DNA from: Tepidicaulis marinus
GTDB taxonomy: Bacteria > Pseudomonadota > Alphaproteobacteria > Parvibaculales > Parvibaculaceae
DNA: 64,000 nt
Direction: 5' to 3'
Assembly: GCF_000739695.1 (NCBI RefSeq)
Contig: NZ_BBIO01000011.1
Coordinates: 62,001 to 126,000 of the forward strand
Part shown: positions 33,981 to 40,796 of the stretch, piece after piece
Position numbering within the stretch: position 1 is the first letter of the stretch
Layout: every line of letters begins with the position of its first letter
The notes under the pieces: model-generated
What the model was told of the DNA's origin: nothing
Databases searched by the model: none
What the model saw: only the letters and a program-made list of their open reading frames with translations
Position numbers and translations under genes: made by a program

Positions 33981-35513
33981 TTAAACTGCCGTGCGCAACA
34001 GCTCGCTCACCACCCGCTCCAGGTCTTTGAGGGAAGCGCAGGTCTGCGCCCGGTCGCAGTGGGGAGTGAAGGAGCGCATGACGCTGTCACCCGTATTCCA
34101 GAGCGATTTCGGCTCCGGGTTCAGCCAGATGACGCGCCGGGCCCGGTCATGGATTTTGTCGAGAATATCGGCGCGCGGGTTGGCGTTATTCGAGCGCCCG
34201 TCCCCCAGCATGATCACCGTCGTATGATGATCGACATCATCAAGAGCGAGATCGGCGAAATCTTCCAGCGCCATGCCGTAATCCGTCGCCCCGCCGCCAT
34301 GCACATGCATGGTCTCGGCAATCGCCTTCTCGATACCCTCCTTCTCGAAGAGGTCCGTCACTTCCCCCAGCCGGCCGGAAAAAGCAAAGGCGCGCACTTG
34401 CGGCAAAACCTCGCTGAGGCTGTAAAGGAACATCAGAAGGAAGCGCGTATATTGCGCCACCGAGCCGGAGACATCGCAGATCGCCATCACTTTCGGGCGG
34501 TCCACCTTCTCGCTTTTCCAGACGATGTCGAAAAGCAGTCCGTCATACTCAATGTTTTTACGGATGGTCTTGCGCACGTCGAGCTGGCCGCGCAGCGTGC
34601 GTTTCTTGCGCCGCGAATTGAGCGCGATGAGCTTCTTCGCCATCTTCTTCACAAGCTGGCGGATAACCTTGGCGTCCCTATGGTCGACATTGGAAAGACG
34701 CACCTGGGAGAGCACTTCCTCGCGTAGCCGCTTACCGGCATTGGCGGTATAAAGCTCAAGCTGCTGCTCGACATAATCGCGCACCTGCGCGCGCAAGCCG
34801 TCGCGCATCTCGCGGATTTCCTGCCCGCGCGCATCGCCCGCCTCCGTGCCCTCGCGCTCCGCCGTCTCAATCGCCTGATCGAGCGTTTCGAGCCCCATTT
34901 CCTCCAGAATGCGCCGCACATACATGCCGCGCTGCGTGAAAAGCCGGATGCGGTTGAGCTGCGTGCGCCGGGCCGCCTCCGCCAGCGCCATTTGCAGGGC
35001 GGCGGCATCGCCCGCCTCCAGCATTTCAAGAAGGTTCTGCCCGCCGGGGGCATTGGGGCCTGCTTGCCGTACATCTCCCTCATTGACCGGCCCGCCGCCG
35101 GGCTTGCCCCCTGATTGGGCCCCTTGCGGCGCGCCGCCATCACCGCCGGAGCTTTGGCCGGGCATGGATGGGGCCCCGCCTTCTTCGCCGCCTTCGCCAT
35201 CGCTCGGCGCGTCTTGCCCGCTCTCGCTTTTCTCGCCTTCGCCCTCCCCATCTTTCGCCTGGCCGGGGCCGTCTTCGCGCTTCGGCGGCGGCTTGAACTG
35301 ATCGAAGGCAAAGAACTTGTCGAAAGTTTCGTCGAAAGAAAGTTTTTCTTCTTCGGTTTTCGCGAGCACTTGCCCGAGCGAGTGTTTGAGCACCTGCCTG
35401 TTATCAAAGCCCACAAGCTCAACGGTGCGCCCCGCATCGATACTTTCCGATATCGACACGCGCACATCCGCCGCCCGCAACGCCCGGATAAATTCGGTCA
35501 GAACCTCGCTCAT
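33981..35513 (-). CDS. VWA domain-containing protein (CoxE-like)
   Basis: The 510-residue protein has an N-terminal helical part, an acidic Gly/Ser/Pro-rich linker (about residues 75-160), a helical middle and a C-terminal von Willebrand A domain. Its MIDAS motif DVSGS begins at D347, with later TDYGMALEDF and GDGRSNN. This is the CoxE/YeaD-type arrangement found next to MoxR ATPases, where the pair helps insert metals or mature enzyme complexes. It starts 20 bases after the MoxR gene. No carbon monoxide dehydrogenase genes are nearby, so the client is unknown. Confidence 0.85.
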   Translation of the reverse strand: MSEVLTEFIRALRAADVRVSISESIDAGRTVELVGFDNRQVLKHSLGQVLAKTEEEKLSFDETFDKFFAFDQFKPPPKREDGPGQAKDGEGEGEKSESGQDAPSDGEGGEEGGAPSMPGQSSGGDGGAPQGAQSGGKPGGGPVNEGDVRQAGPNAPGGQNLLEMLEAGDAAALQMALAEAARRTQLNRIRLFTQRGMYVRRILEEMGLETLDQAIETAEREGTEAGDARGQEIREMRDGLRAQVRDYVEQQLELYTANAGKRLREEVLSQVRLSNVDHRDAKVIRQLVKKMAKKLIALNSRRKKRTLRGQLDVRKTIRKNIEYDGLLFDIVWKSEKVDRPKVMAICDVSGSVAQYTRFLLMFLYSLSEVLPQVRAFAFSGRLGEVTDLFEKEGIEKAIAETMHVHGGGATDYGMALEDFADLALDDVDHHTTVIMLGDGRSNNANPRADILDKIHDRARRVIWLNPEPKSLWNTGDSVMRSFTPHCDRAQTCASLKDLERVVSELLRTAV

Positions 35514-35533
35514 GGTCTCGTCCCCGGCGCCGG

Positions 35534-36475
35534 CTATGCGCTCGCCTTTTGCGCCTGCGTGGTCAGAGCGTTGATTTCCCCGTCCACATTCTCGATATCG
35601 TCCTGGAACTTGAGAAGAACGTTCAGCGTATCGCGCACGAGCTCCGCATCAAGCGTTTCGGCATGAAGCAGCACCAGCGTGCGCGCCCAGTCGATCGTCT
35701 CGGAAACGGAGGGATGTTTTTTGAGCTCCAGCGTGCGCAGGCCCTGCACGAAGGCGACAAGCTGTTTGCGCAGCCCCTCTTCCACATCCGGCACCCGCGC
35801 CTTGATGATGTCGTTCTCGAGTTTGGAATCGGGGAAGGGAATATAAAGGTGCAAACAGCGCCGCTTCAGCGCATCGCCGATCTCGCGCGAATTGTTCGAG
35901 GTCAGGAACACGATGGGCGTGCTCTTGGCCTTGATCGTGCCGAGCTCGGGCACGGAAATCTGATAGTCTGACAAAAGCTCCAGCAGGAAGGCTTCGAACT
36001 CATCATCCGACTTGTCGATCTCATCGATCAAAAGCACCGCGCCCTTTTCCGACCACAGTGCTTTCAAAAGCGGGCGCGGCTCCAGAAACTCGGTGGAGAA
36101 AAACGTGTCGTCGAACTCGTGCAGGCGGTCCATGGACTGTTTCAGCCCCACGGTCCCTTCCATCAGGTCGCCGAGCTTTTCCTTCAGCACCTGGGTGTAA
36201 AGCAGCTGCTTGCCGTATTTCCATTCGTAAAGCGCCTTGGCTTCATCGACGCCTTCATAACATTGCAGGCGGATCAGCTCCTGGCCCAGATACTCCGCCG
36301 TCGCCTTGGCAAGTTCCGTCTTGCCCACACCGGGCGGGCCTTCCACGAGAATGGGCTTGCCCAGTTTCCGGGAAAGGAAAATCGACGTGGCGATCTGCTT
36401 GTCGCAAATATAGCCGCCCTTGGCGAAGCCTTCGCGGACCGCCTGAATTTCGTCCTCGGGTTTCACGTGACGCAT
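35534..36475 (-). CDS. MoxR family AAA+ ATPase
   Basis: The 313-residue ATPase has Walker A EGPPGVGKTELAKA (residues 45-58), Walker B VLLIDEIDKSDDEF, sensor 1 VFLTSNNSREIGDALKRR with the arginine finger region, and the MoxR lid. ATG at 36475 after AGGGAGC is the start; the open frame upstream is not conserved in character. MoxR ATPases act as chaperones with VWA partners, here the adjacent CoxE-like gene. Target complex not evident. Confidence 0.9.
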   Translation of the reverse strand: MRHVKPEDEIQAVREGFAKGGYICDKQIATSIFLSRKLGKPILVEGPPGVGKTELAKATAEYLGQELIRLQCYEGVDEAKALYEWKYGKQLLYTQVLKEKLGDLMEGTVGLKQSMDRLHEFDDTFFSTEFLEPRPLLKALWSEKGAVLLIDEIDKSDDEFEAFLLELLSDYQISVPELGTIKAKSTPIVFLTSNNSREIGDALKRRCLHLYIPFPDSKLENDIIKARVPDVEEGLRKQLVAFVQGLRTLELKKHPSVSETIDWARTLVLLHAETLDAELVRDTLNVLLKFQDDIENVDGEINALTTQAQKASA

Positions 36476-36590: not shown

Positions 36591-37718
36591 TCACGCCCGC
36601 TCAAGCTCGCTCAAAAGCCAGCGCTGATGCTGATGGATCGCAGCTTCCAGATGGCTCAGACGGCCAGGACTGGCCGAACCGCTCGCCAGTCCTTTCTGGA
36701 CGCCCTCGCACGCAATGATGTCTTCATGGTGAACCGCGCGCGTCGCCTCAAGAAAAATTTCCTTCCGCGCCTCGGCCTCTTCCACATCAAGCGAGCGCGG
36801 ATGAACGAGAAGATAAATCGATAGCTGGAAGAACGCCTCGGTCTCGATCTTGAGCCGGTAGAAGATCACCGCATCCGCCAATACCGCAAAGAGGCAGGAT
36901 GGATAGACATTGAAAACCGAAAACGAGCGCCGCGCCTTGTCGGGAATACCGGGAAGGGGCGTGAAAAGCGTCTCGGCTTGCTCATTGCCTTTATGCGGAA
37001 TACGCAAAGCCGCAAAGGGGCCCTGGGCATCATCGACATAGGTGATAGCCGCCGGATAATGCGTCTCGAAGGTTTCCGGATGGATCGCGAAATGATGGTA
37101 GGCCTCCATGAAATTATCGACCAACACTTTCCAATTATAGGCCTGGCCGAAATCGAGCCGTCCCACGAGTTCCATTTCCTCCATACGCCAGGGCGCAAGC
37201 TCCAGCGACAATGGCGCCACTTGCTCGCGAAGCGGCGGCGCTGTGCCGTCCAGATTGACGAAAATCAGCCCGTTCCAGATTTCGCACGCAAAAGAGGGAA
37301 GCGCGCAGTTCTCTTTTGCAAAACCCTCTGCCCCTTCCATCAAAGGCGCGCCAATGAGCTTGCCGTCCAATGCGTATGTCCACTTGTGGTACGGGCAGGA
37401 AAAGGAAGCCGCCTTGCCCGCATCTTCCTTCAAAAGCATCCAGCGATGGCGGCAAACGGCTGAAAGCGCGCGCACAGTGCCGTCTGCGCCGCGCACGATA
37501 AGCAGCGGCTCGCCCGCAAGATCGAAACGGAAATATGACCCCGGCTCGGGCACCTCGCTCACATGGCCCACGGCCTGCCAATGACGGCGGAAAACGCGCT
37601 CCACTTCAAGCGCATGGACATCTTTGGAAGTGTAAAAACCGGGCGGCAGCGACGACGCCGCCGCCAAACGGGGAGGCACGGCCTTGCGCCCCCGCGCCAG
37701 CAAGTCCTGCATATTCAT
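36591..37718 (-). CDS. Rieske-type ring-hydroxylating oxygenase alpha subunit
   Basis: The 375-residue protein has a Rieske 2Fe-2S site with C89-x-H91 and C108-PY-H111, and a non-haem iron site DNFMEAYHHFAIH (residues 201-213) in which H208 and H213 are the likely histidine ligands. These enzymes hydroxylate aromatic rings or demethylate quaternary amines using electrons from a separate reductase, which is not encoded nearby. The start codon is six bases from a 42-bp palindrome, and a TetR gene lies just upstream in the same orientation, so repression by that TetR is likely. Confidence 0.87.
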   Translation of the reverse strand: MNMQDLLARGRKAVPPRLAAASSLPPGFYTSKDVHALEVERVFRRHWQAVGHVSEVPEPGSYFRFDLAGEPLLIVRGADGTVRALSAVCRHRWMLLKEDAGKAASFSCPYHKWTYALDGKLIGAPLMEGAEGFAKENCALPSFACEIWNGLIFVNLDGTAPPLREQVAPLSLELAPWRMEEMELVGRLDFGQAYNWKVLVDNFMEAYHHFAIHPETFETHYPAAITYVDDAQGPFAALRIPHKGNEQAETLFTPLPGIPDKARRSFSVFNVYPSCLFAVLADAVIFYRLKIETEAFFQLSIYLLVHPRSLDVEEAEARKEIFLEATRAVHHEDIIACEGVQKGLASGSASPGRLSHLEAAIHQHQRWLLSELERA

Positions 37719-37723
37719 TTACG

Positions 37724-37765
37724 GCTCATCTTATTTTCAACCGATCGGTCGAAAATAAGATGAGC
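37724..37765. promoter_or_regulatory. 42-bp near-perfect palindrome, candidate TetR operator
   Basis: The sequence is symmetric about 37744.5 with 20 of 21 base pairs matching; only 37739/37750 mismatch. The outer arms are GCTCATCTTATTTTC and its complement, and the core is ACCGATCGGT, like many TetR operator cores. It fills the space between the TetR stop and the Rieske start codon. It could also fold in RNA as a terminator-like hairpin. Binding by the TetR product is inferred. Confidence 0.72.
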
Positions 37766-37806
37766 GAGGCGCCGCGTCAACCGGCAATCGATAGGCGCTG
37801 AAAACC

Positions 37807-38502
37807 TTAGCTTTCCAGAGAGATACGGGTCGTTTCCGCTTCCGCTTTCACATCCGCAACCGTTTTGCCCGGGGCGAGAAGGCCGCGCAGCATGAGGCTG
37901 GCCAGTTCATCGGCTTGGCGTACGGATTTCCGTTCATTCGCCCGGTCAACCCAGGCCGAGGCGCCCTCAGTCGCCGCGAGCAAAGCCTGCGCGGCTGTGT
38001 TCACATCGAGCGGCAAGAACTCGTCTTTCGCGATCCCGCTTTTCACACGCGCGGCGAGCCAGCGAAGGAGCTTTTCCCGTTCCTGCCAATAGGCTTGCAT
38101 TTTTTCATCGCCAAGATCGCCTTGCGCGATGAGCCAGGTGCAATCGTAAGGGGCGCTGCAAAGCTGAAGAACATCGCGGCGAAGGTAGAGATAAAGGCGG
38201 GCGGCCTCTGAAAGCGCCGCCGCACTCAACCGCTTCTGCAAAGCAAGTGCCGGAACCAGCACATCTTCCGCCATCGCATGCACGATGTCCTGCTTGGAGG
38301 GGAAATAGTAGTAAAGCGAAGCCTTGCGCAGCCCCGCCTCCTGCGCGATTTCGCGCACCGACGCGCCGGCAATGCCGTGCTGGCGGAACAGCCGCGCGGC
38401 AGCGGCCAGAATATCACGGCGCGGGTCATCCGAAGGCGCGGCGGCACTTACGCGCGGGCGCCCCTTGCCGGCCTTGGTTCTCTTTTTGATCTGCGCGTCC
38501 AC
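37807..38502 (-). CDS. TetR family transcriptional regulator
   Basis: The 231-residue protein has a TetR_N helix-turn-helix: RRDILAAAARLFRQHGIAGASVREIAQEAGLRKASLYYYFPSKQDIVHAM, then a helical ligand domain. The GTG at 38502 is favoured by GGGAG eight bases upstream; the frame remains open to 38604 without a good ribosome site. It is immediately upstream of the Rieske oxygenase and of the 42-bp palindrome, and is expected to control that gene and perhaps itself. The inducer is unknown. Confidence 0.85.
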   Translation of the reverse strand: MDAQIKKRTKAGKGRPRVSAAAPSDDPRRDILAAAARLFRQHGIAGASVREIAQEAGLRKASLYYYFPSKQDIVHAMAEDVLVPALALQKRLSAAALSEAARLYLYLRRDVLQLCSAPYDCTWLIAQGDLGDEKMQAYWQEREKLLRWLAARVKSGIAKDEFLPLDVNTAAQALLAATEGASAWVDRANERKSVRQADELASLMLRGLLAPGKTVADVKAEAETTRISLES

Positions 38503-38708
38503 CGGATCACTCCCATGCGAAAACGGCTGAAATCCTATCATGGCAAGCGGAAGATTCGGGAAGGGCGCTGTCTCTGTACGCACACGCAAAGCCGGTGTGC
38601 GCAAATGAGCGACATAGAGCCCAAACGCAGGGGAAAGCAGGGCTGGCTCTCAGGCTCAAACTGGCTACAATCCCGGCAATTTCAACGACCAATAATGGGA
38701 GATGCGTC

Positions 38709-40796
38709 ATGGGCAATATCAACGACGTCGCCGACCTGTCCACGGAAGGCGAGATTGCCGTCCTTACCTTGAATTCGCCCCCCGTAAACGCGCTGTCCGC
38801 GCCGGTACGCGAGGGGATTTTCGAAGGCATCAAAAAAGCGGCCGCCGACAGCGCCGTGAAAGCCATCGTGCTGATCTGCGACGGGCGCACCTTCATCGCC
38901 GGCGCCGACATTACCGAATTCGGCAAGAAGCCGACGGGCCCCAGCCTCTTCGACGCGCAGGATATGATCGAGAACGCCTCCGTTCCCGTCATTGCCGCCA
39001 TTCACGGCACCGCGCTCGGCGGGGGCCTGGAAGTCGCGCTCACCTGCCATTACCGCGTGGCGGTTCCCTCCGCCAAATGCGGCCTGCCGGAAGTGAACCT
39101 CGGCCTTTTGCCGGGCGCCGGCGGCACGCAGCGCCTGCCCCGCATCGTCGGCCCGGAAAAGGCGCTGGAAATGGTCACGACCGGCCAGCATGTGCCCGCG
39201 AAAAAGTGCCTTGAAATGGGCCTCGTCGATGAGCTGGCCGAAGAAGGCAAGCTGCGCGAGGGCGCCATTGCTTTCGCCAAGAAAGTGGTCGCCGAAAACC
39301 GCCCGCTGAAAAAAGTCCGCGAGATGAACGGCAAGGTGGAAGCGGCGCGCGGCAAGCCGGAAATCTTCGAAAACTTCCGCAAGTCCATCGCCCGCAAGAC
39401 GCGCGGCTTCCTCGCCCCGGAATATAACATTCAGTGCATCGAAGCAGCCGTGAACAAGCCCTTCGATGAAGGCATCAAGGTCGAGCGCGAGCTTTTCACC
39501 AAACTCGTGACGGGCGAGCAGTCCGCGGCCCAGCGCCATGTCTTTTTTGCCGAGCGCCAGGTCTGGAAAGTGCCGGGCATCGACAAGGACACGAAACGCA
39601 TTCCCATTGAAAAAGTCGGCATTATCGGCGCCGGCACGATGGGCGGCGGCATTTCCATGAACTTCGCCAATGCCGGCATCCCCGTCACCATCGTCGAGCG
39701 CGATCAGGCGCCCCTCGACAAGGGCCTCGCCACGATCCGCAAGAACTACGAGAACACGGCCAAGAAAGGCCGCATCTCCATGGACGATGTGGAAAAGCGC
39801 ACGGGCCTCATCCAAGGCACGACGGACATGAAGGCGCTGGCCGATTGCGACCTCGTCATCGAAGCCGTGTTCGAGAACATGGATGTGAAGCAGGACATTT
39901 TCCGCCAGCTCGATGAAATCTGTAAGCCGGGCGCGATCCTCGCCACCAACACATCAGCGCTCGATATCGACGAGATCGCCAGCGTGACGAAGCGCCCGGA
40001 AGCGGTGATCGGCCTGCACTTCTTCTCCCCCGCCAACGTCATGCGGCTCTTGGAAGTCGTGCGCGCCGACAAGACCTCGAAAGAGGTGATCGCCACTTCC
40101 ATGGACCTTGCCAAGAAGATCGGCAAGATCGCCGCCCTTGTCGGTGTCTGCCCCGGCTTTGTCGGCAACCGCATTCTTGCTCAGCGCCAGCGCGAAGCGA
40201 ACAAGCTCATCCTGGAAGGCGCCATGCCCTGGGATGTGGACCGCGTACTTTACGATTTCGGCCTGCCCATGGGCCCCTTCGCGATGTCGGACCTTGCCGG
40301 TCTCGACCTTGGCTGGCGCAAGGAGAACTCCAAGGGCGAAACGATCCGCGACGTGCTCTGCGAAATGGACCGCCGTGGCCAGAAGACGGGCGCCGGTTTC
40401 TACGATTATGACGAGAACCGCAAGGCCACCCCGTCGAAAATCGTGGAAGACATTATCAAGGACTTCTCCGAGAAGAAACAGATCCAGCGCCGCGATATTT
40501 CCGATCAGGAAATTCTGGAACGCTGCGTCTATCCGATGATCAATGAAGGCTTCAAGATCCTGGAAGAAGGCAAGGCCATCCGCGCCTCCGACATCGATAT
40601 CGTCTGGATCAACGGCTATGGCTGGCCGGTCTACCGGGGCGGCCCGATGTATTACGGCGAAAAGATCGTCGGCCTGGATAAAGTCCTCGCCAAGATGCAG
40701 GAATTCCAGAAAGCGCACGGCGACGATTTCGAGCCGGCCGCGCTGCTGGAAAAAGCGGTCAAGGAAGGCAAGAGCCTTTCCGAGCTCGGCTACTAA
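38709..40796 (+). CDS. Multifunctional enoyl-CoA hydratase/3-hydroxyacyl-CoA dehydrogenase
   Basis: The 695-residue fusion has an N-terminal crotonase domain (GADITEFG, oxyanion loop HGTALGGGLEVAL, and PEVNLGLLPGAGGTQRLPR) and a C-terminal 3-hydroxyacyl-CoA dehydrogenase with the NAD motif VGIIGAGTMGGGISMNFANAG, then the two HCDH helical domains (GVCPGFVGNRI). This is the FadJ/FadB alpha-type enzyme of beta-oxidation. The ATG at 38709 has GGGAG eight bases upstream. No thiolase beta partner is adjacent. Two acyl-CoA dehydrogenases lie a few kilobases downstream. Confidence 0.93.
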   Translation: MGNINDVADLSTEGEIAVLTLNSPPVNALSAPVREGIFEGIKKAAADSAVKAIVLICDGRTFIAGADITEFGKKPTGPSLFDAQDMIENASVPVIAAIHGTALGGGLEVALTCHYRVAVPSAKCGLPEVNLGLLPGAGGTQRLPRIVGPEKALEMVTTGQHVPAKKCLEMGLVDELAEEGKLREGAIAFAKKVVAENRPLKKVREMNGKVEAARGKPEIFENFRKSIARKTRGFLAPEYNIQCIEAAVNKPFDEGIKVERELFTKLVTGEQSAAQRHVFFAERQVWKVPGIDKDTKRIPIEKVGIIGAGTMGGGISMNFANAGIPVTIVERDQAPLDKGLATIRKNYENTAKKGRISMDDVEKRTGLIQGTTDMKALADCDLVIEAVFENMDVKQDIFRQLDEICKPGAILATNTSALDIDEIASVTKRPEAVIGLHFFSPANVMRLLEVVRADKTSKEVIATSMDLAKKIGKIAALVGVCPGFVGNRILAQRQREANKLILEGAMPWDVDRVLYDFGLPMGPFAMSDLAGLDLGWRKENSKGETIRDVLCEMDRRGQKTGAGFYDYDENRKATPSKIVEDIIKDFSEKKQIQRRDISDQEILERCVYPMINEGFKILEEGKAIRASDIDIVWINGYGWPVYRGGPMYYGEKIVGLDKVLAKMQEFQKAHGDDFEPAALLEKAVKEGKSLSELGY

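Follow-up and report, generated by a model that had tools for sequence, protein, structure and literature searches.

We identified a 42-bp near-perfect palindrome that is very probably the operator of the adjacent TetR-family protein, with a single target, a Rieske oxygenase operon that the TetR protein would repress. The palindrome lies within a stretch of 64,000 nucleotides from Tepidicaulis marinus (the window). Comparison with its relatives gives good support to this reading, in which the palindrome is a new instance of the ordinary TetR operator, with an unusually long and lineage-specific extension. An operator, a promoter, and a target can thus be predicted for what is apparently an undescribed TetR-Rieske pair of Parvibaculum-related bacteria, and the pair adjoins genes for the oxidation of alkanes and fatty acids.

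The palindrome (GCTCATCTTATTTTCAACCGA/TCGGTCGAAAATAAGATGAGC) is at 37724-37765, with 20 of 21 pairs matching and zero spacer between the arms; an earlier note on this DNA had reported the same coordinates and the same pairing. The palindrome is real and far beyond chance. It ranks first in the window, where the next-best 42-bp palindrome has 17/21 pairs, and in 100 simulated windows (first-order Markov), the maximum was 14-17 of 21 pairs in each. The earlier note's description of AT-rich arms in GC-rich surroundings also agrees with the composition, as the GC content is 40% in the palindrome (36% in its outer 22 bases) versus 61% in the window. It is longer than most TetR operators, as had been claimed: the TetR operators compared in PMC4150764 are 15-32 bp and are bound by one or two dimers. 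The lone mismatch would become a G-U pair in a minus-strand transcript. The window also contains further long imperfect palindromes, centred at about 29155 and 48797 (17/21 and 16/21 pairs), which are near the chance maximum.

The palindrome follows the TetR stop (37807) and touches the start region of the Rieske gene (ATG at 37718), both on the minus strand, just as the earlier note had placed it. Read along that strand, the order is the tetR stop, 41 nt, the palindrome, 5 nt, and the Rieske ATG. The predicted target (36591..37718, minus strand) encodes a Rieske non-haem iron oxygenase alpha-subunit-like protein (Pfam PF00355 and PF00848), whose nearest solved structures are of carnitine monooxygenase. 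The predicted repressor is a TetR-family regulator (37807..38505, minus strand; the start is uncertain and the open reading frame opens at 38604) that matches PF00440 with E = 3e-18. Its AlphaFold model has a pLDDT of 80.5, and the closest fold is AmtR (Z 19.6, rmsd 3.2 over 197 residues). Beside tetR, and divergent from it, is a gene for a fatty-acid oxidation alpha subunit (FadJ/FadB-like; 38709..40796, plus strand). The Rieske gene is followed by two genes whose synteny is conserved: an AAA ATPase (MadB-like) gene (35534..36469, minus strand), which probably belongs to the Rieske operon, and a VWA/CoxE-like gene (33981..35513, minus strand).

A promoter for the Rieske gene, TTGACG-N17-TATTTT, can be predicted by consensus only. 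The -35 element (TTGACG) is at 37775..37780 on the minus strand, and its TTGAC is invariant in 13 loci. After the 17-bp spacer, the -10 element (TATTTT) is at 37752..37757 on the minus strand, within the upstream arm of the palindrome. The predicted promoter overlaps the palindrome, as TetR-family operators do; for instance, the sites of the TetR repressor MbdR span the start and the -10 (PMC4424350). Counting 7 nt from the -10 places the predicted start of transcription at about 37745, which is the dyad centre. In all 13 of the aligned orthologous loci, there is a TTGAC and a -10-like hexamer inside or overlapping the palindrome.

From these features we infer how the operator would work. A TetR dimer would bind the 20-bp core (TTTCGACCGnnCGGTCGAAA), and possibly two dimers would bind, because 20-32 bp of symmetry is usual in the clade. 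The core covers the -10 and the predicted start, and bound TetR would block RNA polymerase at the Rieske promoter. The Rieske-AAA-VWA operon would then be silent until a ligand frees the repressor. The ligand is probably a lipid or an acyl-CoA related to the substrate of the oxygenase, because a fatty-acid oxidation gene adjoins and, in relatives, so does a CYP153-type P450.

The earlier note had proposed a search of related genomes for the palindrome. In Parvibaculum relatives, whose orthologous Rieske proteins are 61-67% identical, we found the innermost 20 bp (TTTCGACCGnnCGGTCGAAA) in an unchanged position ahead of the Rieske gene, and the outer arms were lineage-specific. In the window, this core (TTTCAACCGATCGGTCGAAA) is at 37735..37754, and another 12 orthologous loci carry it in the corresponding position. 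The Rieske loci of the relatives carry TTTC(G/A)ACCGWWCGGTCGAAA, with 22-26 nt from the dyad centre to the ATG. When we searched the relatives for the whole 30-bp motif, it was present in the genome of the window only, so only the core is conserved. A regulon search of that genome found no second core site at up to 2 mismatches. Across 84,980 species there were 29 exact matches to the core, of which 12 were at a TetR-Rieske locus with TetR. The other 17 appear to be chance matches, as none of those genomes has a homologue of the locus.

A lone long palindrome within GC-rich DNA might instead be the remnant of a mobile element, a recombination site, or an accident, unrelated to the TetR protein. 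But there is one copy per genome, in a fixed position, co-occurring with TetR, and its probability by chance is negligible. We consider an unrelated palindrome to be extremely improbable; the conservation refutes a mobile-element or chance origin.

The core tracks the TetR protein. Among 40 genomes of the family, the core was present in 13 of the 14 with an orthologue of TetR and in 0/26 without (Fisher p about 1e-9, which ignores the kinship of the genomes; because the 40 genomes are related, these counts are not independent events). In 3 genomes, the presence of TetR was taken from the sequence of the locus itself, and we left G031 uncounted: it has a one-mismatch match to the core with the inner symmetry broken. 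In G024 and G026, the Rieske gene is kept and TetR and the palindrome are both absent. (The assembly of G026 is fragmented and its contig stops inside the P450; a genome-wide search for TetR there was also negative.) In these two genomes (L090:7619-10140 and L099:7066-8971, respectively), the Rieske gene lies close behind the P450, as if it had left a repressible promoter and joined the P450 operon. G022 (L089:5664-7912) kept TetR and the P450 and has neither the Rieske gene nor the palindrome, so in that genome TetR may be a relic or serve some other role. Among the orthologues, the helix-turn-helix of TetR (AGASVREIA..AGL.KASLYYYF) is nearly invariant.

Outside of the family, orthologues of TetR turned up in two genomes, both from one other genus, when we searched 385 alphaproteobacterial genomes with a profile. 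In these distant loci, the TetR proteins are 45-47% identical and the Rieske proteins are 47-49% identical, and the Rieske gene is directly downstream of tetR. Each locus has three core-like sites. Two tandem sites, spaced 24 bp apart, lie over the Rieske promoter (L137:2203-2246 and L138:6871-6914), and the third is just upstream of tetR (L137:3094-3113 and L138:7663-7682). The tandem sites cover TTGAC(A/T)-N17-(AATTAT or AAATAT). Three sites arose in 0/200 shuffles. Thus the 20-bp core and the overlap with the promoter persist in the distant loci, but the 42-bp symmetry does not.

The site before tetR suggests that the gene is autoregulated in the distant loci and not in the lineage of the window. 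We found no operator upstream of tetR or fadB (the tetR/fadB gap) in the window or in eight related loci, which argues against autoregulation in the window or in Parvibaculum, unlike in many TetR systems. Self-regulation of tetR is common among these systems, but it is neither universal nor defining.

By analogy, a close experimental precedent is the pair Rv3160c (TetR) and Rv3161c (a putative oxygenase) from M. tuberculosis, where nested palindromes overlap the -10 and binding by TetR was shown (PMC7810876). These nested inverted repeats would become a single 21-bp inverted repeat if two mismatched bases were changed (PMC7810876). As in the window, a TetR gene is beside an oxygenase gene and the palindromes lie over the -10, which is a likeness of arrangement. 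The difference is that their site is upstream of a tetR-oxygenase operon, with tetR co-regulated, while here the site is between tetR and the oxygenase gene. Bm3R1 and FatR are TetR repressors of CYP102 that are displaced by fatty acids, and FatR has an 18-bp palindrome with a single genomic site (PMC3814354). They resemble our system in having a short palindrome around the start of a monooxygenase operon, in a fatty-acid context. However, the target here is a Rieske oxygenase, and the CYP153-type P450 of Parvibaculum is upstream of the operator. AmtR (from Corynebacterium and Mycobacterium) is the nearest solved TetR fold both by sequence and by model, but it is only about 26% identical and has another biological context. 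The operators of QacR, CgmR, and CprB, which are bound by dimers of dimers (22-32 bp; PMC4150764), are comparable to the 30-32 bp of symmetry in many of our loci, but here the symmetry reaches up to 42 bp in two lineages. In the open-access literature, we found no match for the operator sequence or for the Parvibaculum TetR-Rieske system.

A plain operator leaves the outer arms unexplained, and 42 bp exceeds the 15-32 bp of the TetR operators in PMC4150764. Beyond position 10, three groups have different arm sequences (the window; P. sedimenti with isolate clean1030; and all others), but the pairing is kept, and positions 11, 12, 14, and 16 have changed on both sides. The window and P. sedimenti are paired as far as position 21 (P. 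sedimenti with 21/21 pairs), clean1030 as far as position 17, and six others as far as positions 15-16. The outer-arm register is lost in four orthologous loci and the outer stem is absent from the two distant loci, and all six kept the core. Only the core is universal, so the extension (bases 11-21) is not essential to the conserved function. On the upstream side, where positions 11-13 overlap the -10, they are A or T in every locus. Three explanations for the outer arms remain: extra contacts with the repressor, an RNA hairpin over the start region, or mutation by template switching. On a small scale, these long lineage-specific arms could serve to test whether extended symmetry around a repressor site is selected or is a mutational by-product.

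There is a sizeable chance, if somewhat below even, that the outer-arm symmetry is such a by-product: template switching within a functional palindrome of 20-30 bp would copy one arm onto the other and so make the palindrome longer, with no function for the added length itself. A single template switch can make perfect stems and multibase compensatory changes (PMC8794818). The length and sequence of the arms are lineage-specific and the core is invariant, as this would predict. On the other hand, three deep lineages are too few to separate it from selection, and it accounts for the extension alone, not for the core.

The earlier note had proposed that the palindrome may act both as an operator and as an RNA hairpin that insulates the two genes. 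The operator half is supported by the conservation in orthologues, the overlap with the promoter, and the tracking of TetR; the hairpin half is weakly supported, and we reject termination. An intrinsic terminator or insulator would account for a strong hairpin between both genes. But no T-run follows either arm, a terminator scan did not report the element, and the element contains the -10 of the gene that follows, whose ATG is 5 nt away. As the U-tract is lacking, we rejected an intrinsic terminator, and we think that termination or insulation is very unlikely.

A dual element is a different possibility, and an unlikely one: besides acting as the operator in DNA, the long arms might form a hairpin in tetR read-through mRNA and hide the ribosome-binding region of the Rieske gene. 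An mRNA that begins at the dyad centre would lack the 5' arm and be freely translated, so that the enzyme would come from the derepressed promoter only. Fold-back protection is known from the transposase of Tn10/IS10 and is similar to what we have in mind. If this were true, one palindrome would act at two levels, as a DNA operator and as an RNA silencer of read-through translation. The hairpin is predicted to fold at -36.5 kcal/mol (z -5.5). The start region is predicted to be less accessible in the read-through mRNA than in the mRNA from the gene's own promoter in 13/13 loci, and also less accessible than with a scrambled 5' arm (13/13 loci, although barely in DS1). Also, the arms of the three lineages differ but stay paired, with changes on both sides, and the longest palindromes (42 bp; the window and P. 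sedimenti) occur where tetR and the Rieske gene are immediate neighbours. Against this, any long palindrome yields a hairpin, and the pairing of the arms is modestly above that in permutations of whole arms (p = 0.018, for related sequences). The four orthologous loci without the outer register and the two distant loci without the stem, in which the core persists, also argue against a dual role.

The operator, in our preferred reading, sits within a gene order that is kept in most loci: the fadB-like gene (divergent), TetR, the CYP153-type P450 (in some), the palindrome, the Rieske gene, the AAA ATPase, and the VWA gene. The P450 is absent from the locus in the window, in P. sedimenti, and in clean1030. 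In G021 and G023, the AAA gene is several kilobases farther off. Near codon 31, the reading frame of the Rieske orthologue in clean1030 is interrupted by a stop (L110, about 3070, minus strand), which points to either a pseudogene or an assembly error. Finally, the AAA ATPase and VWA/CoxE-like pair (33981-36469 in the window) resembles MadB/MadC but scores below the curated cut-offs.
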